DNA of 64,000 bases, from assembly GCF_000419605.1 (NCBI RefSeq), contig NZ_ATTI01000001.1, positions 2,638,501-2,702,500 on the forward strand, written 5' to 3'. A program made the translations under genes and the position numbers. The notes under the pieces are model-generated. The model was not told where the DNA came from, made no database searches, and saw only the letters and a program-made list of their open reading frames with translations. Shown piece by piece: positions 1 through 11,377 of the stretch (the first letter of the stretch is position 1; each line of letters opens with the position of its first letter). Origin of the DNA: Sphingomonas phyllosphaerae 5.2. GTDB taxonomy: Bacteria; Pseudomonadota; Alphaproteobacteria; Sphingomonadales; Sphingomonadaceae.

Positions 1-425
1 CCGACGATCGCCACCGTTTGCCCCGGCAGCACGTCGGCGCGGCGGAAGATGTTCATCGCACATGCCAGCGGCTCGCCTGGAAACGCCTGTCCGTCCAGCG
101 CGGCGGGCAAGCGCACCAGCTGGTCGACCGTCGCCACGTCATATGGCGCAAATCCGCGTTCCGACATCATCGTCACCCGTTCGCCGGCCGCGACGTCGCT
201 CACGCCCTCGCCCAGCGCGTCGACCACGCCCCAGCCCTCATGCCCCATCCCGCCGGGCGCGCCGGGATAGGTCGACCACGGCTGCCCCTCCCATGGCTCG
301 ATGTTCGACGCACATACGCCGCATCCCTCCAGCCGCACCCGCACCTCACCCGGTCCGGGTTGCGGCACGGGGGCATCCTGCATCTCGAAACGTCCCGGCC
401 CCACCAGCACCGCCGCGCGCATCAT
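1..425 (-). CDS. Zinc-dependent alcohol dehydrogenase-like oxidoreductase (3' part beyond window)
   Basis: The reading frame opens with two Met codons (425 or 422) and runs off the left edge, so only about 141 N-terminal residues are seen. They form the GroES-like half of a medium-chain dehydrogenase. A Cys in GCGVCASN near residue 37 and the GHEGWG motif near residue 63 match the catalytic zinc site, and the visible part ends at the start of the Rossmann domain (GQTVAIVG). The family oxidises alcohols or reduces aldehydes with NAD(P). The gene lies beside a carbohydrate cluster, so a polyol or sugar substrate is possible, but that is inference. It is divergent from the DUF1003 gene with only 35 nt between them. 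Confidence 0.8.
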   Translation of the reverse strand, partial: MMRAAVLVGPGRFEMQDAPVPQPGPGEVRVRLEGCGVCASNIEPWEGQPWSTYPGAPGGMGHEGWGVVDALGEGVSDVAAGERVTMMSERGFAPYDVATVDQLVRLPAALDGQAFPGEPLACAMNIFRRADVLPGQTVAIV

Positions 426-460
426 GCTTCCATTTTCCTGGTCCAAGCGTTTGACTTTCC

Positions 461-970
461 ATGAATGATTCTACCGACCTCAACGGCGCGCTGGCCGCCA
501 ACATCGATCGGCTGACCGATCGGCAACGCCGCGTGGAGGCCGAAGCGCCCTGGTCGGAACGGCTGGCCGGCCGCATCACCGCCTTCACCGGGTCGATGCT
601 GTTCGTCCTGCTGCATCTGTGCTTCTTCGGCGGCTGGATCGTCTGGAACCTGTGGCTCGCGCCGAAGTTCGATCCGACGTTCGTGGTGCTGGCGATGATC
701 GCGTCGGTGGAGGCGATCTTCCTCTCCACCTTCGTCCTCATCAGCCAGAATCGCATGGCGGCGCAGGCGCAGGCCCGTGCCGATCTCGACCTGCACATCA
801 ACCTGCTGGCCGAACACGAACTCTCCCGCCTGACCACCCTGGTCCGCCGTATCGCCGAGCGGCTCGACGTCGAGCCGCCCGCCGACCTGGCCGAAATCGA
901 GCAGGACGTCCGTGCCGAGGATGTGCTGGACACCCTCGATCAGGTCACGCCGCGACAATCTGCGGGGTGA
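461..970 (+). CDS. DUF1003 family membrane protein
   Basis: This 169-residue protein has a charged N-terminal region, two membrane segments (about residues 42-64 and 72-93) separated by a short loop containing APKFDP, and a soluble acidic helical tail. The FxLLHLxxFxxWIxWN pattern and the short two-helix layout are typical of DUF1003, an inner-membrane family of unknown function. The 3' end overlaps the convergent hydrolase gene by 26 nt. Nothing in the sequence shows a link to the glycan genes other than position. Confidence 0.8.
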   Translation: MNDSTDLNGALAANIDRLTDRQRRVEAEAPWSERLAGRITAFTGSMLFVLLHLCFFGGWIVWNLWLAPKFDPTFVVLAMIASVEAIFLSTFVLISQNRMAAQAQARADLDLHINLLAEHELSRLTTLVRRIAERLDVEPPADLAEIEQDVRAEDVLDTLDQVTPRQSAG

Positions 971-1877
971 CCGCCTTCGGCGCGGCGGTGGCCGGCGCGT
1001 AACGGTCGATCATCCACGCACAGAAATCCGCGAACGCCTGCGGGTCGCGCGCCGCGCTGCTGTGATGCGGCTGGATGCCGAGATGCTCGGGCGTGAAGCA
1101 AAACGTCACCGTGGTGTCGAACTCGGCCAGCGCTTCCATCTGCCGGTCGAACCAGTCGATCGCGTCGGGACGGAAGCTGTCGGCCCAGCTCAGCCCGGTG
1201 CGCAACTTCTTCGTCCCCAGCCGGCGCATCCACTTGACCGCATCGTCCAGCCGCGGGTCCTGATAATGGAACCACTGCATCAGCCCCATCTCCGACGCGA
1301 CCTTGGCATAACTGTCGAGCGACGGCTTGGGCGTGCCGTCGGCGCGGATCAGCCCCATGTAGAAATGCCGGTAATAGCTCGATCCCTCCGCCTCGCGGTG
1401 GCGGGTGGTCGCGCCCCATTCCTGCGGCAGGTCGAACAGCGAATACCAGTAGATGCGCGGCACGCGACCGATCAGCAGCTCGGCGGTCTTCTCGACGCCG
1501 AACACCTGCACCTCCTCGGCCCCGAACGATCCGACGCCCACCTCGGTCACCCACACCGGCTTGTCCGTCACCGCCTCGATCTCGGCGATCTTGGCGGGCC
1601 AGTCGTGGATGCTCCACAGGTTCCAGTCCAGCGGGAAGCCGTGCACCGCGATCACGTCGACCGCGTCGAGGCAGCCGTGCCCCTCCAGCCTTTTCACCCA
1701 CAGCGGATCGATCGGCGACATGCCGCCCAGCACGCGCGTGACGTTCGGGTTGACCGCCGCGATCGACGCGCCAGCGCGCGACACCATGTCGGCGAACAGC
1801 GACCAGTCGGGGTCGACCTCCGGATCCCAATGCGACTTGTTGTTGGGCTCGTTCCAGATCATCGCCGCTTCGATCAC
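945..1877 (-). CDS. Circularly permuted beta-xylosidase-like glycosidase (clan A type barrel)
   Basis: The protein has 310 residues from a GTG start that overlaps the methyltransferase stop as GTGA; an in-frame ATG lies five codons further in. It begins directly with the acid/base motif WNEPNN (Glu10) and carries the nucleophile motif WVTEVG (Glu112) and a W-Y-S-L-F-D strand near residue 145. Segments in the middle (GLIRADGTPKPSL, about residues 175-187) look like the usual C-terminus of GH39/GH5-type barrels. The last 90 residues (KLRTGLSW, CFTPEHLG, FADFCAWMIDRY) look like the segment that normally comes before WNEPN. I therefore read it as a complete but circularly permuted barrel. No signal peptide is visible, so it should act in the cytoplasm. 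Its substrate is unknown. Confidence 0.75.
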   Translation of the reverse strand: MIEAAMIWNEPNNKSHWDPEVDPDWSLFADMVSRAGASIAAVNPNVTRVLGGMSPIDPLWVKRLEGHGCLDAVDVIAVHGFPLDWNLWSIHDWPAKIAEIEAVTDKPVWVTEVGVGSFGAEEVQVFGVEKTAELLIGRVPRIYWYSLFDLPQEWGATTRHREAEGSSYYRHFYMGLIRADGTPKPSLDSYAKVASEMGLMQWFHYQDPRLDDAVKWMRRLGTKKLRTGLSWADSFRPDAIDWFDRQMEALAEFDTTVTFCFTPEHLGIQPHHSSAARDPQAFADFCAWMIDRYAPATAAPKAVTPQIVAA

Positions 1878-2665
1878 GCGCGCATTCCCCCCGTGGATGG
1901 ATAGACCGCCGCTGGCCCGTGCTCTGCGAAGGGCACGTCGGCGATACGACAAAGATAGACGTCGTCCTGCGGATGCGCGGTCACCGTGAAGCCCGCGGCG
2001 CGCAGCATCGCCTCGGAACACGCGCGGTTCGGCGCCCACCAGTTGGTCCAGTCGCCCGAGAACTTCCGTTCGATGAAATGCATCTTGGGATATTCCGGCG
2101 CATTGAAATAGGCGGGCGGGGTCCACGTGCCGGGCACGTAGAACGGATGGTCCTCCGGCACCTCGGCATCTTCGGTCGATCCCTGCTGCATCGTCTGGAA
2201 CAGCATCATGTCGCCCGCGACATGCTCCCGGATCAGGTCCAGCGCCAGCAGCGGGTGTCGCAGATGGTAGAGCACCCCCATGAAGATCACGAGGTCGAAA
2301 CGCTCGCCAAGCTGCGCCACGTCGTAGACCGACAATTTGCGAAATTCGACGCTGTCTCCGAACCCGAGCGCCTCGCTCGCCAACCGCGCCTGCGCCAGAT
2401 ACCGTTCGTCCCAGTCGATCCCGACCACCCGCGCCGCGCCGCGCCGCTTCATCTCGACCGAGTAGAAGCCGGCGTTGCACCCGATGTCCAGGACCGTCTT
2501 GCCGGTCAGGTCGTCCGGCAGGCACCCGCCGAACTCGGCGAACTTGTTCGCGGGATAGTCGAGCAGGAAATGGTCTGGCGCCGTCTCGACCCCGCCCGGC
2601 AGGCGGATGTTATGAAACCACGGCGCGAGCCGTTCGACGCGCGCGCGCAACTCTTCCGCCATCAT
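1874..2665 (-). CDS. SAM-dependent methyltransferase, TIGR04290 (CmoB-like) family
   Basis: This 263-residue protein resembles the tRNA-uridine carboxymethyltransferase CmoB. It has an N-terminal segment with PWFHNI and an SAM-binding motif I, VLDIGCNAGFYS, near residue 56. An acidic motif II (VVGIDWDERYL) and a motif with MGVLYHLRHP near residue 129 follow, then a C-terminal region with WWAPN. As I recall, the TIGR04290 family sits next to glycosyltransferases in several bacteria, so the acceptor is more likely a glycan intermediate than tRNA; this is inference. It is the first gene of a two-gene minus-strand unit coupled to the permuted glycosidase. An EcfG-like promoter lies just upstream, predicting a leader of only about 17 nt. 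Confidence 0.8.
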   Translation of the reverse strand: MMAEELRARVERLAPWFHNIRLPGGVETAPDHFLLDYPANKFAEFGGCLPDDLTGKTVLDIGCNAGFYSVEMKRRGAARVVGIDWDERYLAQARLASEALGFGDSVEFRKLSVYDVAQLGERFDLVIFMGVLYHLRHPLLALDLIREHVAGDMMLFQTMQQGSTEDAEVPEDHPFYVPGTWTPPAYFNAPEYPKMHFIERKFSGDWTNWWAPNRACSEAMLRAAGFTVTAHPQDDVYLCRIADVPFAEHGPAAVYPSTGGMRA

Positions 2666-4078: not shown

Positions 4079-4690
4079 TTATCCCCGTCGGAGGCCGTCA
4101 CCCCGGTCCAGCAGAGGCCGCTCGTTCAGCGACACCAACACCGCCCCCTTCCCTTCGAGCCGCAACGTCGTCACGGAGCCCGGATCGCACCCCAGCGAGA
4201 AGATGCGCGCCAGCGGTAGTCCAAGATAATGCGCCACCACCCCGCGGATCACGTCGCAATGCGACACGCACACCGTTACCCCGTCCCCCGCAGCGCTCAC
4301 GAACCCCACCGCACGCGCCACCGCCTCGGCCATCGTCTCGCCGCCGGGGCAACGCGCCTCGCCGCGCGCCTCGTTCCACCGCCGCCAATCGGGATCGTCC
4401 GCCAGCGCCTCGAACGACACGCCGGTGAAGCGCCCAAAGTCCACCTCGTCCAGCGCCGCGATCGTCTCCACGGCGATGCGGTGCGTCGCCGCCACCGCGG
4501 CTGCCGTCTGCTGCGTCCGGGTTCGGGGGCTCGCACACAGGCGCGTCACGGCCTGTCCCGCAAGATGCCGCGCCAGCGCCGCCGCTTCCGCATGACCCTG
4601 CGCATCGAGCGCGATCGCCGATCGCCCACTCAGTACGTGGCCGACTTCGCCATGGTGCCCGTGCCGGGCAAGCAGGACATAGCGACTCAT
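4079..4690 (-). CDS. Histidine phosphatase family protein
   Basis: The 203-residue protein has the phosphoglycerate mutase-like layout: catalytic LLARHGHH at residues 6-13, the second arginine in CASPRTRTQQTA near residue 54, a Glu in the middle region (ALDEVDFGRF) and the second catalytic His in VSHCDV near residue 143. Family members dephosphorylate sugars, alpha-ribazole phosphate or other small phosphates. No signal peptide is present. It converges on DUF6165 and is divergent from the epimerase operon across a 164-nt control region. A sugar phosphate of the glycan pathway is one possible substrate. Confidence 0.85.
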   Translation of the reverse strand: MSRYVLLARHGHHGEVGHVLSGRSAIALDAQGHAEAAALARHLAGQAVTRLCASPRTRTQQTAAAVAATHRIAVETIAALDEVDFGRFTGVSFEALADDPDWRRWNEARGEARCPGGETMAEAVARAVGFVSAAGDGVTVCVSHCDVIRGVVAHYLGLPLARIFSLGCDPGSVTTLRLEGKGAVLVSLNERPLLDRGDGLRRG

Positions 4691-4779: not shown

Positions 4780-4818
4780 GTTCCTCCCGTAATCAACCAG
4801 CAATGCACGCGCGTGTCA

Positions 4819-4832
4819 TTGATCGAAATCAA
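4819..4832. promoter_or_regulatory. FNR/FixK-type box (TTGAT-N4-ATCAA)
   Basis: TTGATCGAAATCAA is a perfect match to the FNR/FixK palindrome. It lies downstream of the predicted EcfG start and just before the ribosome site of the epimerase gene. A regulator bound there would be expected to block rather than activate that transcript. It could be chance. Confidence 0.4.
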
Positions 4833-4841
4833 TCACGCTGC

Positions 4842-4848
4842 GGGAGGG
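4842..4848 (+). promoter_or_regulatory. Strong ribosome binding site selecting a TTG start
   Basis: GGGAGGG lies six nucleotides before TTG at 4855. An in-frame GTG at 4813 has no comparable site and would place 14 atypical residues before the GGAGFIG nucleotide motif. The TTG at 4855 is therefore the preferred start of the epimerase. Confidence 0.6.
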
Positions 4849-4854
4849 ACCAGC

Positions 4855-5967
4855 TTGGAAACCATTCTCATCACCGGCGGGGCCGGATTCATCGGCCGGT
4901 TCGTCGCCGATGAACTGCTGTCGCGTGGCAACAAGGTCCGCGTTCTCGACAGCCTGATCGAGCAGGTGCACGGCGATTGCGAGCGCCCGCCGCTCCTCAA
5001 CGACGAAGTCGAGCTGATCCGTGGCGACGTGCGCAACGGCGACGTCGTCTCCAAGGCGCTCGACGGCGTCGACAGCGTGATCCACCTCGCGGCAGAGGTT
5101 GGCGTCGGCCAGTCGATGTACGAGGTCGAGCGCTATACCTCCACCAACGACGTCGGCACCGCCGTCCTCTTCGAGAAGCTGATCGACAAGCCGGTGCGCC
5201 GCGTCGTCACCGCGTCGTCGATGTCGATCTACGGCGAGGGGCTGTACCGCGACGCCGACGGGAACATGGTGCAGGATGCCGAGCGCAAGGGCCTGCGCGA
5301 CGGCCTGAGCAACTGGGAGCCGGTCGACGCGCAGGGCCGCCCGCTCACCCCGGTCGCCACCCCGGAGTGGAAGCAGCCGAACCTCGCCTCGATCTACGCG
5401 CTCAACAAATATGTGCAGGAGCGCACCACCCACATCATGGCCGCCCCATACGGGATCGAGGGGGTCTGCCTGCGGCTGTTCAACGTCTATGGCCCCGGTC
5501 AGGCGCTTTCCAACCCCTACACCGGCGTGCTCGCGATCTTCGCGTCGCGGCTGCTCAACGGGCAGCAGCCGATGATCTTCGAGGATGGCGAGCAGCGCCG
5601 CGACTTCGTCCACGTCACCGACGTCGCGCGCGCCTTCGCCGATGCGCTGGTCCTGCCGCAGGCCGTCGGCGGCACCTTCAACATCGGTTCGGGGCATGAC
5701 CGCTCGGTGCGCGAGATCGCGACCGAACTGGCCGTCGCGATGGGCAAGAACGATCTCCAGCCGGAGATCGTCGGCAAGGCGCGGATCGGCGACATCCGCC
5801 ACTGCTTCTGCGACACCACGCTCGCGCAGGACCGGCTCGATTTCCGCGCCACGCAGGATTTCACCGCGGGGCTTGCCGAACTCGCCGAATGGGTCGCGCA
5901 GCAGACCGCCGAGGACAAGGTGGCCACGATGCGCGCCGAGCTCGAGCGGCGCGGACTGGTCGCATGA
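4855..5967 (+). CDS. NAD-dependent epimerase/dehydratase (extended SDR)
   Basis: From the TTG start the protein has 370 residues. It opens with the NAD-binding motif ITGGAGFIG, has SSMSIYGEG with the catalytic Ser/Thr region near residue 122, and the Tyr-x-x-x-Lys pair in YALNKYVQ near residue 182. LRLFNVYGPGQ and a YTGVLAIFASRLLNGQ segment follow, as in GalE/RfbB-type nucleotide-sugar enzymes. An insertion around residues 135-170 with many charged residues is longer than in GalE. It probably makes a modified nucleotide sugar in the cytoplasm. It heads a six-gene operon whose members overlap by 1-4 nt and is preceded by EcfG- and FNR-like sites. Confidence 0.85.
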   Translation: METILITGGAGFIGRFVADELLSRGNKVRVLDSLIEQVHGDCERPPLLNDEVELIRGDVRNGDVVSKALDGVDSVIHLAAEVGVGQSMYEVERYTSTNDVGTAVLFEKLIDKPVRRVVTASSMSIYGEGLYRDADGNMVQDAERKGLRDGLSNWEPVDAQGRPLTPVATPEWKQPNLASIYALNKYVQERTTHIMAAPYGIEGVCLRLFNVYGPGQALSNPYTGVLAIFASRLLNGQQPMIFEDGEQRRDFVHVTDVARAFADALVLPQAVGGTFNIGSGHDRSVREIATELAVAMGKNDLQPEIVGKARIGDIRHCFCDTTLAQDRLDFRATQDFTAGLAELAEWVAQQTAEDKVATMRAELERRGLVA

Positions 5968-7010
5968 CGGGAGCGGTGCTGGTCACCGGCGGCGCCGGCT
6001 TCATCGGGTCCAACCTGGCCGATCGGCTGGCGGGCGAAGGGCATGATGTCGTGGTCTACGACGCGCTCGCCCGCGCCGGCGTGGAGCGGAACCTCGAATG
6101 GCTCCGCCGCCGGCACGGCGCCCGGATCCGCTTCGTCCACGCCGACATCCGCGATGCCGCACGGCTCGCCGACGAAGTCGCGCAGGCCAGGGCAGTGTTC
6201 CACTTCGCGGCACAGGTCGCGGTGACGACCAGCCTCGATGATCCCGCCGACGATTTCACCACCAACATCACCGCCACGTTCCAGCTGCTGGAGGCGCTGC
6301 GCACGCGCGCACCGCAGGTGCCGCTGATCTTCGCCTCCACCAACAAGGTGTATGGCGATCTCGGCGACCTGGACTTCGCGCTGGAGGATGAAGCCTATCG
6401 CCCTGTCGACGCGCACGTCCGCGCGCATGGCATCGGCGAGGCGCGCCCGCTCGACTTCCACACGCCGTACGGCGTGTCGAAGGGCGCCGCCGACCAATAT
6501 GTCCTCGATTACGCGCGCAGCTTCGGGCTCAAGACCTGCGTCTTCCGCATGAGCTGCATCTATGGCCAGCGGCAGATGGGCACCGAGGATCAGGGCTGGG
6601 TCGCGCATTTCCTGATCCGCGCGCTGAACGGTGAGCCGATCACGCTCTACGGCGACGGCCATCAGGTTCGCGACGTGCTCGACGTCAAGGACGCGGTGAA
6701 CGCCTATGTCGCCGCGTGGCAGCGCATCGACGACGTCGCCGGCCGCGCCTTCAACCTTGGCGGCGGCCCGGCCAATGCCGTCAGCCTGCGGCAATTACTC
6801 GCGCATATTGCGACGCTCACCGGCCGCGTGGTCGATGTCCGCTATTCCGGCTGGCGCGCCGGCGATCAGCGCTATTTCGTCGCCGACGCGCGGGCTGCGC
6901 AGTCCGCACTGGCGCTCCCCGAGCGCCGTGACTGGCGTGAGGGCGTGGGAGCGCTCGCCGACTGGCTGGAACGCGAGCGCGCCGCACCGGCGATCGAGGC
7001 GGCTGCGTGA
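5964..7010 (+). CDS. SDR nucleotide-sugar epimerase, CDP-paratose 2-epimerase-like
   Basis: The ATG overlaps the previous stop as ATGA and gives 348 residues starting VLVTGGAGFIGSNL. The catalytic pair is in TPYGVSKGAADQY near residue 170. The following run RMSCIYGQRQMG with EDQGWVAHF near residues 195-216 is characteristic of the CDP-paratose/tyvelose 2-epimerase branch. The protein therefore probably epimerises C2 of a nucleotide-linked hexose. Together with the preceding SDR it would supply one or two unusual sugar donors to the downstream transferases. The exact sugar cannot be told from sequence. Confidence 0.8.
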   Translation: MTGAVLVTGGAGFIGSNLADRLAGEGHDVVVYDALARAGVERNLEWLRRRHGARIRFVHADIRDAARLADEVAQARAVFHFAAQVAVTTSLDDPADDFTTNITATFQLLEALRTRAPQVPLIFASTNKVYGDLGDLDFALEDEAYRPVDAHVRAHGIGEARPLDFHTPYGVSKGAADQYVLDYARSFGLKTCVFRMSCIYGQRQMGTEDQGWVAHFLIRALNGEPITLYGDGHQVRDVLDVKDAVNAYVAAWQRIDDVAGRAFNLGGGPANAVSLRQLLAHIATLTGRVVDVRYSGWRAGDQRYFVADARAAQSALALPERRDWREGVGALADWLERERAAPAIEAAA

Positions 7011-8092
7011 CACGACGGCTGGTGATGACCGCCGACGCGATCGGCGGCGTCTGGCAATATGCCATCGGCCTTGCCTCCGATCTCGTCCGCGCCGGCTGGT
7101 CGGTCGATCTCGCCACGCTCGGCCCGCCTCCGTCCGCGGCGCATCATGCGCAGGCCGAGGCGGCCGGCGTCACGTTGATCGACACCGCACTCCCGCTCGA
7201 CTGGCTTGCGACCGATGCCGCCGCAGTGGTCGCGGCTGCCGACGCGGTCGCCCGGATCGCACGCGCCCGCCGCGCCGATCTCGTCCAGCTCAACCAGCCC
7301 GCGCTCGCCATCGCGGAGTTCGCGATGCCTGTCGTCGCGGTTGTCCACAGCTGCGTCGCCAGCTGGTGGGATGCGGTCGAGACCGGCCCGTTGCCCCCCG
7401 GCCTCGCCTGGCAGCGTGACCTCACCGCGCGCGGCCTCGCCCGCGCCGACGCGATCGTCTGCCCGTCCCGCGCCTTCGCTGCCACCGTCCAGCGCCTTTA
7501 CGCATTGCCGGCCGCGCCGCACGCGATCCACAACGGCCGCGCGTTACCCGCGGCGATCGGCCCGCTCGGCGACCGCGCCTTTACCGCCGGCCGCTTGTGG
7601 GATCGCGCGAAGAACGTCGCCACGCTCGACCGCGCCGCCGCGCTGATGACGCTCCCGTTCGATGCCGCCGGTGCCGCGCACGGCCCGCATCACGAACGTG
7701 TCGAGCTCGCGCACCTCAACCTGCTCGGCCATCTGAACGACGATGCCGTCGCCGAACGTCTCGCCACGCGCCCGATCTTCGCGTCGGCGGCGCGCTACGA
7801 ACCGTTCGGTCTCGCCGTGCTCGAAGCCGCGCTGACCGGCTGCGCTTTGGTGCTCGCCGACATTCCCACTTTCCGCGAGTTATGGGACGGTGCCGCCACG
7901 TTCGTCGCCCCGGACGATGCCGCCGCTTTCGCTCATGCGATAACCGACCTCGCCGCCGATCCAGATCGCCGCATGGCCAGCGGGGCGCGCGCCCGCACCC
8001 GCGCACTCGACTATGCGCCAGCGCACGTCACGCGCGCCATGCTCGCCGTCTTCGAAAGCGCGCTCGGCAGTGGCGCACGGGTCGCCGCATGA
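7007..8092 (+). CDS. Glycosyltransferase family 4
   Basis: The GTG start overlaps the upstream stop (GTGA) and gives 361 residues. The N-terminal part starts with an acceptor-side GGVWQYAIGLASDLVRAG loop typical of GT-B enzymes. The C-terminal half has YEPFGLAVLEAALTGCALVLAD near residue 265, the E-x7-E donor-phosphate signature of GT4. No membrane segment is seen, so it is a soluble or peripheral cytoplasmic enzyme. It is the first of four consecutive transferases in the operon. Confidence 0.85.
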   Translation: MTRRLVMTADAIGGVWQYAIGLASDLVRAGWSVDLATLGPPPSAAHHAQAEAAGVTLIDTALPLDWLATDAAAVVAAADAVARIARARRADLVQLNQPALAIAEFAMPVVAVVHSCVASWWDAVETGPLPPGLAWQRDLTARGLARADAIVCPSRAFAATVQRLYALPAAPHAIHNGRALPAAIGPLGDRAFTAGRLWDRAKNVATLDRAAALMTLPFDAAGAAHGPHHERVELAHLNLLGHLNDDAVAERLATRPIFASAARYEPFGLAVLEAALTGCALVLADIPTFRELWDGAATFVAPDDAAAFAHAITDLAADPDRRMASGARARTRALDYAPAHVTRAMLAVFESALGSGARVAA

Positions 8093-9198
8093 GGTTCGTG
8101 TATTTCACCCACAGCCTCGCCTCGTGCTGGAACCACGGCAACGCGCACTTCCTGCGCGGCGTGCTGTCCGAACTGATCGGGCGCGGCCACGACGTGCGGG
8201 TCTACGAGCCCGCGAACGCGTGGAGCCTGCAGAACCTCCTGTCCGACAATGGCGAGGCAGGATTGGACGCCTACAGGACGGCCTACCCCGAGCTGTCCTC
8301 GCGAACATTTGGCCCCGGTGCCGACCTGACCGAACTGGTCGACGGCGCCGACGTCGTGATCGTCCACGAATGGAACGCGCACGATCTGGTCGCCGACCTT
8401 GGCAAGCTCCGCCGGCAAGGCGCGCCCTACACGTTGTTTTTCCACGATACCCACCATCGCGCCGTCAGCGCGCCCGAAGAGATGCGCGCCTACGACCTTG
8501 ACGGCTATGACGGCGTGCTCGCGTTCGGCGAGACGCTTTCGCGCGTCTACCGCGACTGGGGCTGGGGCGATCGCGTGTGGACCTGGCACGAAGCCGCCGA
8601 CACCCGCCGCTTTTTCCCGGTGGAGGGCGACCGCGAAGGGCTGGTCTGGATCGGCAACTGGGGCGACGGCGAACGCACCGCCGAAATCGAGGATTATCTC
8701 CTCGCCCCTGCCCGCGACGCCAGCCTGTCACTCGATATCTATGGCGTCCGTTATCCCGATGAAGCCAAAGCGATGCTCGCCGGTTACGGCGCACGCTATC
8801 ACGGCTGGGCACCCAACGCGGCGGCGCCGGCGATCTTTGCGAACGCACTCGCCACCGTCCACGTCCCGCGCCGATATTACACGACGATCCTGCCCGGCAT
8901 TCCCACGATCCGCGTGTTCGAGGCGCTTGCCTGCGGGCTCCCCCTCGCTTCCGCGCCATGGGACGATGCCGAGCATCTCTTCCGTCCCGGCACAGACTTC
9001 CTCTTCGCACGGTCGCCTACGGAAATGACCAGCGTCCTCAACGACCTGCGCCACGACCCGTCCTTGCGGGCCTCGCTCGCCGCTGCCGGCCTGGAAACCA
9101 TTCGCGCGCGCCACACCTGTGCGCACCGCGTCGACGAGCTGCTGGCGATCCTCGCCACGCTCGACACCCACTCGCATCCACGGAGCATGCCAGCGTGA
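8089..9198 (+). CDS. Glycosyltransferase, CgeB-like (first of three)
   Basis: This 369-residue protein begins at an ATG overlapping the GT4 stop by four nucleotides. The N-terminal region (FTHSLASCWNHGNAHFLRGVLSEL) and the C-terminal IRVFEALACGLPLASAPW motif near residue 275 match GT-B glycosyltransferases of the CgeB/Glyco_trans_1_2 type. It shares a common opening pattern (a loop with S/W-x-H/N-G-x-A) with the next two genes, so the three look like an in-place gene expansion. It should add one sugar in the cytoplasm; donor and acceptor are unknown. Confidence 0.8.
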   Translation: MRFVYFTHSLASCWNHGNAHFLRGVLSELIGRGHDVRVYEPANAWSLQNLLSDNGEAGLDAYRTAYPELSSRTFGPGADLTELVDGADVVIVHEWNAHDLVADLGKLRRQGAPYTLFFHDTHHRAVSAPEEMRAYDLDGYDGVLAFGETLSRVYRDWGWGDRVWTWHEAADTRRFFPVEGDREGLVWIGNWGDGERTAEIEDYLLAPARDASLSLDIYGVRYPDEAKAMLAGYGARYHGWAPNAAAPAIFANALATVHVPRRYYTTILPGIPTIRVFEALACGLPLASAPWDDAEHLFRPGTDFLFARSPTEMTSVLNDLRHDPSLRASLAAAGLETIRARHTCAHRVDELLAILATLDTHSHPRSMPA

Positions 9199-10283
9199 AG
9201 ATCGCCTTCTACGGATCCAGCCTGCTGTCATCGTACTGGAATGGTGCTGCGACCTATTACCGCGGTATCCTGCGCGCGCTCGGCGAGCGCGGCTATGACA
9301 TCACCTTCTACGAACCCGACGCCTTCGAACGGCAGCAGCATCGCGACATCGATCCGCCCGCTTATGCCAAGGTCGTCGTCTATCCCGCGACGCACGACGC
9401 CTTGAACGATGTGCTGGCGGAGGCGGCGAAGGCCGATATCGTCGTAAAGGCGAACGGCGTCGGTGTCTTCGATCGCGAGTTGCTCGATGGCATCATCGCG
9501 CATGCGCGCCCTGACGCGCTGAAGATCTTCTGGGATGTCGACGCCGCCGCCACGCTCGACGAAATGCGCGCCGATCCCGATCATCCCGTGCGCGCCGCAC
9601 TCCCGCATCTCGACATGGTGCTCACCTATGGCGGCGGCGATCCCGTCGTCGATGCGTATCGCGCGTTCGGCGCCGCGGAATGCGTGCCGGTCTACAATGC
9701 CCTGGACCCGCAGACCCACCACCCCGTGCCGGCCGACGATCGCTTCGCCTGCGACCTTGCCTTCCTCGGCAATCGCCTTCCCGACCGCGAGGCGCGCGTC
9801 GAGGAGTTCTTCCTCCGCCCGGCCGCGCTGCTACCCGGACAACGCTTTTTGATCGGGGGCAACGGCTGGGACTCCAAGGCGATGCCGGAGAATGTGCGCC
9901 ACCGTGGCCATGTCTTCACTGCCGAGCACAACGCCTTCAACTGCACGCCCCGCGCCGTCCTCAACGTCGCGCGCGATTCGATGGCGCACATCGGCTTCTC
10001 CCCCGCCACCCGCGTGTTCGAGGCGGCCGGCGCCGCCGCCTGCCTCATCACCGACGCATGGGAAGGGATCGAGCTGTTCCTCACCCCCGACCATGAAGTG
10101 TTGGTCGCGCGCGATGGGCAGGATGTCGCCGACCATCTCGCCGCCCTCACCAGCGACCGTGCGCAGGCGATCGGCAAGGCCGCGCTGAAGCGCGTGCTCG
10201 CCGAGCACACCTACGATCTGCGCGGCGCGCAGGTCGACACGCTCTTCAAGGCGCACGCCGCCCGTCAGCGCGAGGCGGCGTGA
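9195..10283 (+). CDS. Glycosyltransferase, CgeB-like (second of three)
   Basis: A GTG start overlapping the previous stop gives 362 residues. The opening GSSLLSSYWNGAATYYRGILRAL parallels the neighbouring genes. The donor-site region FSPATRVFEAAGAAACLITDAW lies near residues 270-291, followed by a variable C-terminal helix. The family is GT-B, CgeB-like. The alanine-rich AAGAAACLI segment replaces the more usual ACG. No signal peptide or membrane segment is visible. Confidence 0.8.
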   Translation: MKIAFYGSSLLSSYWNGAATYYRGILRALGERGYDITFYEPDAFERQQHRDIDPPAYAKVVVYPATHDALNDVLAEAAKADIVVKANGVGVFDRELLDGIIAHARPDALKIFWDVDAAATLDEMRADPDHPVRAALPHLDMVLTYGGGDPVVDAYRAFGAAECVPVYNALDPQTHHPVPADDRFACDLAFLGNRLPDREARVEEFFLRPAALLPGQRFLIGGNGWDSKAMPENVRHRGHVFTAEHNAFNCTPRAVLNVARDSMAHIGFSPATRVFEAAGAAACLITDAWEGIELFLTPDHEVLVARDGQDVADHLAALTSDRAQAIGKAALKRVLAEHTYDLRGAQVDTLFKAHAARQREAA

Positions 10284-11377
10284 TGAAGCTCGTCGTCCTC
10301 GGTCTCTCGCTCAGCTCCAGCTGGGGCAATGGCCACGCCACCACGTTCCGTGCGCTGCTTCGCGCCTTTGCCGCACGCGGCCACGACGTGCTGTTCCTCG
10401 AACGTGACATGCCCTGGTACGCCGCACACCGCGACGAGCCGGATCCCGATTATTGCCGTCTCGCGCTCTACGACAGCCTCGCCGCACTCGCGGAGTGGCG
10501 GACCGAGATCGAGCAGGCCGATGCGGTGATGGTCGGCTCCTACGTCCCGGACGGCGTCGATGTCGCGCGGACCGTGCAGGCGTGGGCGCGCGGCACCACC
10601 GCCTTCTACGACATCGACACCCCCGTCACGCTCGCGAAGCTGGCGCGCGGCGCGTGCGACTATGTCTCGCCCGAGGTGATCCCCGGCTATGACGTCTATT
10701 GCTCGTTCACCGGCGGGCCGACGTTGCGGTTGATCGAGGAGCGGTATGCCGCCCCCGCCGCGCGTGCACTCTATTGCTCGGTCGATGCTGATCGCTACCG
10801 CCCGACCGGCGCGGCGAAGCGCTGGGACCTCTCGTATCTCGGCACCTACAGCGACGATCGCCAGCCGACCCTCGAACGCCTGTTGATCGAGCCGGCACGT
10901 CGCCGTCCCGACAAGCGCTTCGTCGTCGCCGGCCCGCAATACCCCGCCACGATCGACTGGCCTGCCAATGTCGAGCGGATCGAGCACCTCGGCCCGGCCG
11001 ACCACGCCGACTTCTACTCGGCTAGCCGCGCCACGCTCAACGTCACCCGCGCCGACATGATCGCGGCAGGCTGGTCGCCCTCGGTGCGCCTTTTCGAGGC
11101 GACGGCGTGCGGTACGCCGATCGTGTCGGATCGCTGGCCCGGCATCGACGAACTGCTCGTGCCCGACCGCGAAATCCTGCTTGCCGACACCGCCGACGAT
11201 GTCGCGGCGGCGCTCGCCCGCCCCGATCTCGATGCGATCGGGGCTGCCGGACGCGTGCGCGTGCTCGCCGAGCACACGTCGCACCATCGCGCCGCCGAAC
11301 TCGAAGCTCACCTCAACGAAGCCGCATCCGCGCGGAGCGTCGACGCCAGAACGCCTCTCGCAACGTCACCAGTGTGA
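10283..11377 (+). CDS. Glycosyltransferase, CgeB-like (third of three)
   Basis: The ATG shares one base with the upstream stop (TGATG); a GTG three bases earlier is an alternative. The 364-residue protein opens with LGLSLSSSWGNGHATTFRAL, like its two neighbours. It has a DIDTPVTL segment near residue 113 and the donor-binding motif SVRLFEATACGTPIVSDRW near residues 269-287. It closes the operon. No terminator-like hairpin is obvious before csbD, which has its own promoter. Confidence 0.8.
   Translation: MKLVVLGLSLSSSWGNGHATTFRALLRAFAARGHDVLFLERDMPWYAAHRDEPDPDYCRLALYDSLAALAEWRTEIEQADAVMVGSYVPDGVDVARTVQAWARGTTAFYDIDTPVTLAKLARGACDYVSPEVIPGYDVYCSFTGGPTLRLIEERYAAPAARALYCSVDADRYRPTGAAKRWDLSYLGTYSDDRQPTLERLLIEPARRRPDKRFVVAGPQYPATIDWPANVERIEHLGPADHADFYSASRATLNVTRADMIAAGWSPSVRLFEATACGTPIVSDRWPGIDELLVPDREILLADTADDVAAALARPDLDAIGAAGRVRVLAEHTSHHRAAELEAHLNEAASARSVDARTPLATSPV

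Follow-up and report, generated by a model that had tools for sequence, protein, structure and literature searches.

Very probable natural circular permutation of a clan GH-A-type glycosidase barrel in a gene cluster of Alphaproteobacteria

The glycosidases of clan GH-A are built on a (beta/alpha)8 barrel, with the acid/base residue at the end of strand b4 and the nucleophile at the end of strand b7, and we know of no natural circular permutant in this clan. Profile comparisons and predicted structures make it very probable that just such a protein, a (beta/alpha)8 glycosidase barrel of clan GH-A type in circularly permuted order, is encoded at positions 945..1877 (minus strand) of a 64,000-nucleotide stretch of Sphingomonas phyllosphaerae 5.2 (assembly GCF_000419605.1, contig NZ_ATTI01000001.1, positions 2,638,501 to 2,702,500), hereafter the window. 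The GH70 glucansucrases are circularly permuted GH13-type barrels with extant non-permuted kin (PMC11299179); they resemble the present case in that a glycosidase barrel was permuted in nature while unpermuted relatives persist. They differ in belonging to clan GH-H, in being extracellular and multidomain, in acting on sucrose or starch-like substrates and in that the permuted unit is the A/B/C/IV core. A rearranged order is also reported for the PgaB deacetylase domain (CE4), for GH13_19 MalS and for the domain topology of a GH3 enzyme, all outside clan GH-A. A search of the open-access literature, with subscription journals mostly outside its reach, gave no clan GH-A circular permutant among the matches listed. 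The nearest solved glycosidase, for the permuted form and for its canonical counterpart alike, is PslG of Pseudomonas aeruginosa (GH39-type; PDB 4zn2, 5bx9, 9g17). PslG has the canonical order, is periplasmic and is larger (a 416-residue chain), and the permuted family profile matches it over residues 4–166 only. It is likewise encoded in a polysaccharide biosynthesis operon (PMC10485009), which offers a precedent for a glycosidase gene in a biosynthetic operon.

The preliminary description of the gene names no strand; reading the minus-strand frame from a GTG start at position 1877 to the stop codon at 945–947 gives a protein of 310 residues with the N-terminal sequence VIEAAMIWNEPNN. The translation bears out the motif order of the preliminary description, which had the protein begin at its own acid/base motif: WNEPNN (residues 8–13) comes first and is followed by WVTEVG (109–114), GLIRADGTPKPSL (175–187), LRTGLSW (225–231), CFTPEHLG (260–267) and FADFCAWMIDRY (282–293). 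Residues 1–192 (1302..1877), from the acid/base through the end of the last helix, correspond to canonical strands b4–b8 placed first, and residues 196–295 (993..1292) match the profile of canonical strands b1–b3, placed last. Between them lies the putative new junction, residues 192–197 (1287..1304), where the old C-terminus (the last helix) meets the old N-terminus (the first strand); in the predicted model a helix at 185–191 is followed by a strand at 198–200. The codons of E10, the predicted acid/base within WNEPN, and E112, the predicted nucleophile within WVTEVG, occupy 1848..1850 and 1542..1544 respectively; all these features are on the minus strand.

The permutation is most directly seen when family profiles are compared. 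A profile of 56 permuted rows was aligned with a canonical profile of 80 rows, consisting of the 79 of 120 listed matches that passed a motif and length filter, together with one further protein (L102). Unrotated, the comparison splits into two pieces, residues 3–192 aligning with canonical positions 114–301 (score 284) and residues 192–295 with positions 6–111 (score 184). Rotation of the permuted profile at residue 196 yields a single alignment of 281 columns with a score of 461 (E 1.6e-68), and among 31 rotations tried in steps of 10 the top score fell at 190, with the best rotation point at 190–196. A repeat with another canonical master (P0266, 54 rows) placed residues 3–191 on 116–299 (score 296) and 193–295 on 9–113 (score 185) when unrotated, and one piece of 280 columns (score 472) when rotated at residue 196. 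An alignment that fits sequentially was named in the preliminary description as evidence against permutation; what we find is a native-order alignment that breaks in two and scores below the rotated one, and an unpermuted barrel is rejected on that account. Both parts of the protein are homologous to one contiguous parent domain, with their order swapped, as befits a circular permutant. One could still argue that the protein is an unrelated barrel whose C-terminal part resembles b1–b3 by chance, since a fold search with the permuted model alone retrieves generic barrels with near-tied Z scores (11.9–13.3 among the 50 entries shown; PslG is absent from these 50, which does not exclude a match further down). 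However, the C-terminal part matches the canonical b1–b3 segment with E 1.5e-26 over 103 columns in the profile comparison, which refutes that reading, and we give it practically no credence.

The predicted fold agrees with the profiles. AlphaFold models of the permuted and canonical proteins were predicted separately and compared by profile alignment carrying their secondary structure. Strands 1–8 of the permuted protein map onto canonical strands 4, 5, 6, 7, 8, 1, 2 and 3, giving the order b4–b8 then b1–b3. A fold lacking a closed barrel would, according to the preliminary description, have spoken against permutation, and eight barrel strands are predicted. The prediction has the marks of a permuted fold, namely a whole barrel, joined old termini (192–197) and new termini within the one loop that separates helix 3 from strand 4. 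In rotated order E10 comes just after b4 and E112 lies on b7, as in clan GH-A, whilst in the native chain their strands are the first and the fourth. Both glutamates and four further active-site residues align with canonical counterparts: in the canonical sister the position of E10 is taken by E123 (conserved in 54/54) and that of E112 by E227 (52/54). Within the permuted family the active-site set, comprising R226 (b2), N9-E10 (b4), H79 (b6), E112 (b7) and W144 (b8), is kept in 56 of 56 rows at each position, and the earlier claim that both catalytic glutamates are retained holds.

The permuted order is not peculiar to the window. Two protein searches, one with the window protein and one with a Mesorhizobium-type query, each returned 8000 scored candidates, all 8000 at E ≤0.001, of which the best 120 were listed. 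In each search 120 of the 120 best matches cover 94–100% of the query; since each does so in one local alignment, these homologues share the permuted order. The homologues of like order that the preliminary description proposed to look for are thus at hand, 240 of the 240 listed aligning over at least 94% of the query. In the permuted alignment (A3) WNEPN precedes LRTxxSW in 56/56 rows. We further took 80 related loci from genome contigs, 62 of which have at least 9 kb on each side. In the window the GTG start and the stop codon of a TIGR04290 family methyltransferase gene overlap. The methyltransferase gene lies directly upstream of the permuted gene in 78/80 of the related loci, and the exact four-nucleotide overlap recurs in 66 of those 78; we therefore place the real start near WNEPN. 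In three of the 80 no usual start codon stands opposite residue 1, and these genes must begin elsewhere. In the window the open frame runs on beyond the start and into the methyltransferase gene, which might suggest a truncated or fused gene, arising by frameshift, assembly error or from two overlapping genes. Yet this upstream open frame is missing in relatives such as L005 and L006 (314 codons in all), and order, length and start are constant across many genera and on chromosomes and plasmids; such an artefact is exceedingly improbable. Truncation, frameshift and assembly error are rejected, order and start being conserved among relatives. Profiles, predicted structure and gene context together show natural permutation and not truncation, in line with the preliminary description.

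The permuted gene is distributed patchily. Three overlapping genome sets were searched, each counting the genome that holds the window. The family Sphingomonadaceae gave near-full-length permuted matches in 37 of the 298 genomes searched (together with a partial match where a contig ends and a weak canonical one), the class in 8 of 385 and the phylum in 12 of 398, all 12 of them inside the class. Seven further weak matches in the phylum set (E 1e-10 to 4e-4) came from genomes that lack the permuted gene, and the three such proteins that were read (L008, L009, L010) all have the canonical order. Leaving aside vague labels such as ‘Pseudomonadota bacterium’, the named carriers among the listed matches, the contigs and the 40 listed plasmid rows are Alphaproteobacteria, including Sphingomonas, Sphingobium, Novosphingobium, Erythrobacter kin, Paracoccus, Mesorhizobium, Devosia, Labrys, Sinorhizobium, Azospirillum, Roseomonas and others. 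In all 147 plasmid records matched, of which 50 below 60% identity may hold canonical or other forms. In one genome (G525) the match extends one codon beyond a TGA that is, by reading frame, the stop of the gene.

A class-wide profile search also revealed the opposite arrangement. In six genomes the two pieces occur in reverse order within one open frame (up to 191–298, then up to 3–186); both pieces were reported in five, and the sixth (G284) shows the order by translation. In these six genomes the canonical-order domain stands at the N-terminal end of a longer protein whose remainder is an SDR (short-chain dehydrogenase/reductase) epimerase. A search with the canonical domain found 422 relatives, of which 120 were listed; 80 of these 120 allowed both motifs to be placed, and in 80/80 of them the LRTxxSW-type motif lies 78–80 residues ahead of WNEPN. 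Some listed relatives appear to stand alone (for example P0266, 353 residues). This sister domain is homologous to the permuted form over 280 columns after rotation and shares its active-site set and core cluster, but differs from it in having the order b1–b8 and, in the six genomes read, in being fused in front of an epimerase. The closest canonical relative found is this unnamed, epimerase-fused domain and no classical GH39 or GH5 enzyme, the types of barrel to which the preliminary description had compared the protein. Fused proteins (L100–L105, P0243–P0362) carry the database names ‘CDP-paratose 2-epimerase’ or ‘GDP-mannose 4,6-dehydratase’, and named matches on the canonical side include, among those listed, Proteobacteria, a cyanobacterium, Myxococcales and Bacteroidota.

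The two forms occur in matching gene clusters. In the window the methyltransferase gene (1874..2665, minus strand; 358 bits against a cut-off of 300) is followed at higher coordinates by a histidine phosphatase gene (4079..4690, minus strand; PF00300; in 67/80 related loci) and then, on the plus strand, by two SDR epimerase/dehydratase genes, EPI1 (4813..5967; PF01370; 66/80) and EPI2 (5964..7010), the latter of which has a counterpart elsewhere in Alphaproteobacteria that bears the canonical glycosidase domain at its N-terminus. Four glycosyltransferase genes complete the plus-strand series: glycosyltransferase 1 at 7007..8092 (PF13439/PF13692), 2 at 8089..9198 and 3 at 9195..10283 (both PF13524 and with approximate starts), and 4 at 10280..11377 (PF13524; 59/80). 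Counting without overlapping gene assignments, we observed both epimerases and all four glycosyltransferases in 52 of the 62 well-flanked loci. Of the same 62, 60 have the methyltransferase, 51 a histidine phosphatase, 39 a gene resembling UDP-glucuronate decarboxylase and 30 inositol-3-phosphate synthase. Plasmids of Sphingobium yanoikuyae, Azospirillum lipoferum and Sinorhizobium meliloti carry copies of the same core. All six canonical stretches contain EPI1, the canonical domain directly before EPI2, glycosyltransferases 1–4 and the decarboxylase-like gene, and five of the six have the methyltransferase. The fused gene comes immediately after EPI1 in five of them, with three intervening genes in the sixth (L167). 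In the permuted loci EPI1 and EPI2 are same-strand neighbours with only 0–158 nucleotides between their matched ends (66/66), so the canonical domain must be absent from that position. On this evidence the stand-alone permutant takes the place of the epimerase-fused canonical domain in a matching cluster. No genome with both forms was seen in the family, class and phylum sets, for which at most about seven candidates were scored per genome. One genome (G458) has the permuted gene together with a more distant canonical-order protein (L110, an 801-codon frame, E 4e-10), which was not counted as a sister.

As to the origin of the permutation, a tree was built from 63 of 139 rows, comprising 18 of 54 permuted rows in rotated form, 42 of 82 canonical rows and three outgroup rows; two of the 56 permuted rows (P0152 and P0165), missed by the motif search, were left out. 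Permuted and canonical rows fall into two separate clades (99/98 and 98/96, respectively), and a single permutation event would suffice. Given long outgroup branches and an uncertain root, we do not claim that the permuted family nests within the canonical one. The canonical order is that of PslG and of GH-A enzymes generally, and is for this reason taken as ancestral. The computations show a canonical b1–b8 chain opened between helix 3 and strand 4, with its old C-terminus (the last helix) joined to its old N-terminus (strand 1) through a loop of about six residues, and a new chain start seven residues ahead of WNEPN. This would go back to one ancient permutation, probably by tandem domain duplication and loss of the outer halves. 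A second glycosidase match that might be a relic of such a duplication was found in 0/80 related loci at E 1e-15, and the mechanism thus stays inferred.

What might the permuted protein do? The conserved residues are a set typical of 4/7 barrel glycosidases, from which a retaining enzyme is to be expected. Since a barrel strand comes first in the chain and a signal peptide would not fit ahead of it, the protein is most likely cytosolic. The cluster neighbours have roles in making sugar nucleotides, in sugar transfer and in methylation; no exporter, polymerase or importer is among the named cluster genes, such genes not having been searched for elsewhere. Most likely the protein acts in the cytosol as a retaining glycosidase or transglycosidase and belongs to a pathway of glycoside biosynthesis, and we have reasonable confidence that its role is both catalytic and biosynthetic. 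Such an enzyme would use the GH-A double displacement, with E112 as nucleophile and E10 as acid/base, and would hydrolyse or transfer a sugar on an intermediate supplied by the four glycosyltransferases, beside EPI2 and the methyltransferase. Because the neighbours are biosynthetic, a trimming or transfer step in the synthesis of a soluble or lipid-linked glycoside, near the EPI2 reaction, is favoured over scavenging. Several databases do name the protein ‘beta-xylosidase’, and the decarboxylase-like gene, a likely source of UDP-xylose, is nearby in 43/80 loci, as might suit an enzyme degrading imported plant oligosaccharides. The conserved glycosyltransferases, epimerases and methyltransferase nevertheless speak of building rather than breaking, the Pfam match behind the glycosidase label spans residues 3–124 alone, and we judge scavenging distinctly unlikely. 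A little less unlikely, though still improbable, is that the permutation is real and glycosidase function has been lost, leaving a sugar-binding or scaffolding partner of EPI2 or the glycosyltransferases. The fusion of the canonical sister to an epimerase suggests a physical partnership, neither form has a known activity, and model confidence is low right after E10. However, a scaffold would need no full catalytic set, and N9, E10, H79, E112, W144 and R226 are invariant across the 56 rows.

Taken together, these data fit a scenario to which we would give an even chance: a single ancient GH-A permutation freed an epimerase-fused domain to become a stand-alone cytosolic biosynthetic enzyme, the two forms being exchangeable within one alphaproteobacterial glycoside cluster, the chain ends adaptively rewired, and the family the first natural permutant among 4/7 barrel glycosidases. 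Several points weigh against our main reading, a permuted enzyme with a biosynthetic role. Residues 11–14 and 157–169 of the model, directly after strands that bear active-site residues, have a predicted local distance difference test score (pLDDT) below 50, and the function is deduced from the active-site set and the neighbours. The two cluster versions also differ in genes other than the glycosidase, so that they may serve different pathways: none of the six canonical stretches yielded a histidine phosphatase or an inositol-3-phosphate synthase, and one of the six the zinc-binding dehydrogenase and Gfo/Idh/MocA gene. Finally, a search of the window together with its left flank gave neither a UDP-glucuronate decarboxylase nor an inositol-3-phosphate synthase. 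The occurrence of permuted and canonical forms in matching clusters amounts to a natural experiment on why chain ends move, for which folding order, release from fusion and partner contacts are candidate reasons, and the cluster occurs in many Alphaproteobacteria.

The permutation would also explain the partial coverage of the protein by Pfam. Glyco_hydro_cc (PF11790) scores 25 bits against a cut-off of 21, with residues 3–124 aligned to only positions 67–186 of a 237-position profile, and matches 46/56 family members at E ≤0.01. GH53 (PF07745) stays below its cut-off (13.4 bits against 24, E 0.04) and matches 4/56 members at E ≤0.01, whilst GH39 (PF01229) gives no match to the window protein up to E 1 and one in 56 family members (E 0.0058). 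No NCBIfam family matched the window protein up to E 1. Following the permutation also brought to light a glycosidase-type domain that is scantily annotated and forms the N-terminal part of proteins with epimerase names; Pfam rarely detects it, PF00232 matching 11, PF11790 two and PF00150 one of the 54 canonical rows scanned.

No paper on this gene cluster or on TIGR04290 was found in the open-access search; two papers on Sinorhizobium meliloti that it did give concern another polysaccharide cluster. The overlap of the methyltransferase gene with the permuted gene is not universal: in Sinorhizobium meliloti the former (L114:398-1192) sits at the opposite end of the cluster, some 14 kb away. 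On the same plasmid the match to glycosyltransferase 1 is split in two pieces in a region without an annotated gene (L114:5596-6673), and this gene may therefore be broken. A TIGR04295 B12-binding radical SAM gene is part of the Azospirillum cluster (L113:8706-9998) and is present in 5/6 canonical stretches; it was found in 0/80 related permuted loci from genome contigs. At the left edge of the window a zinc-binding dehydrogenase gene (1..446, minus strand) extends beyond the edge and is followed there by a Gfo/Idh/MocA oxidoreductase gene (locus L115). Between it and the permuted gene lies a plus-strand DUF1003 gene (461–970), which overlaps the 3′ end of the permuted gene; DUF1003 is present in 35/80 related loci.
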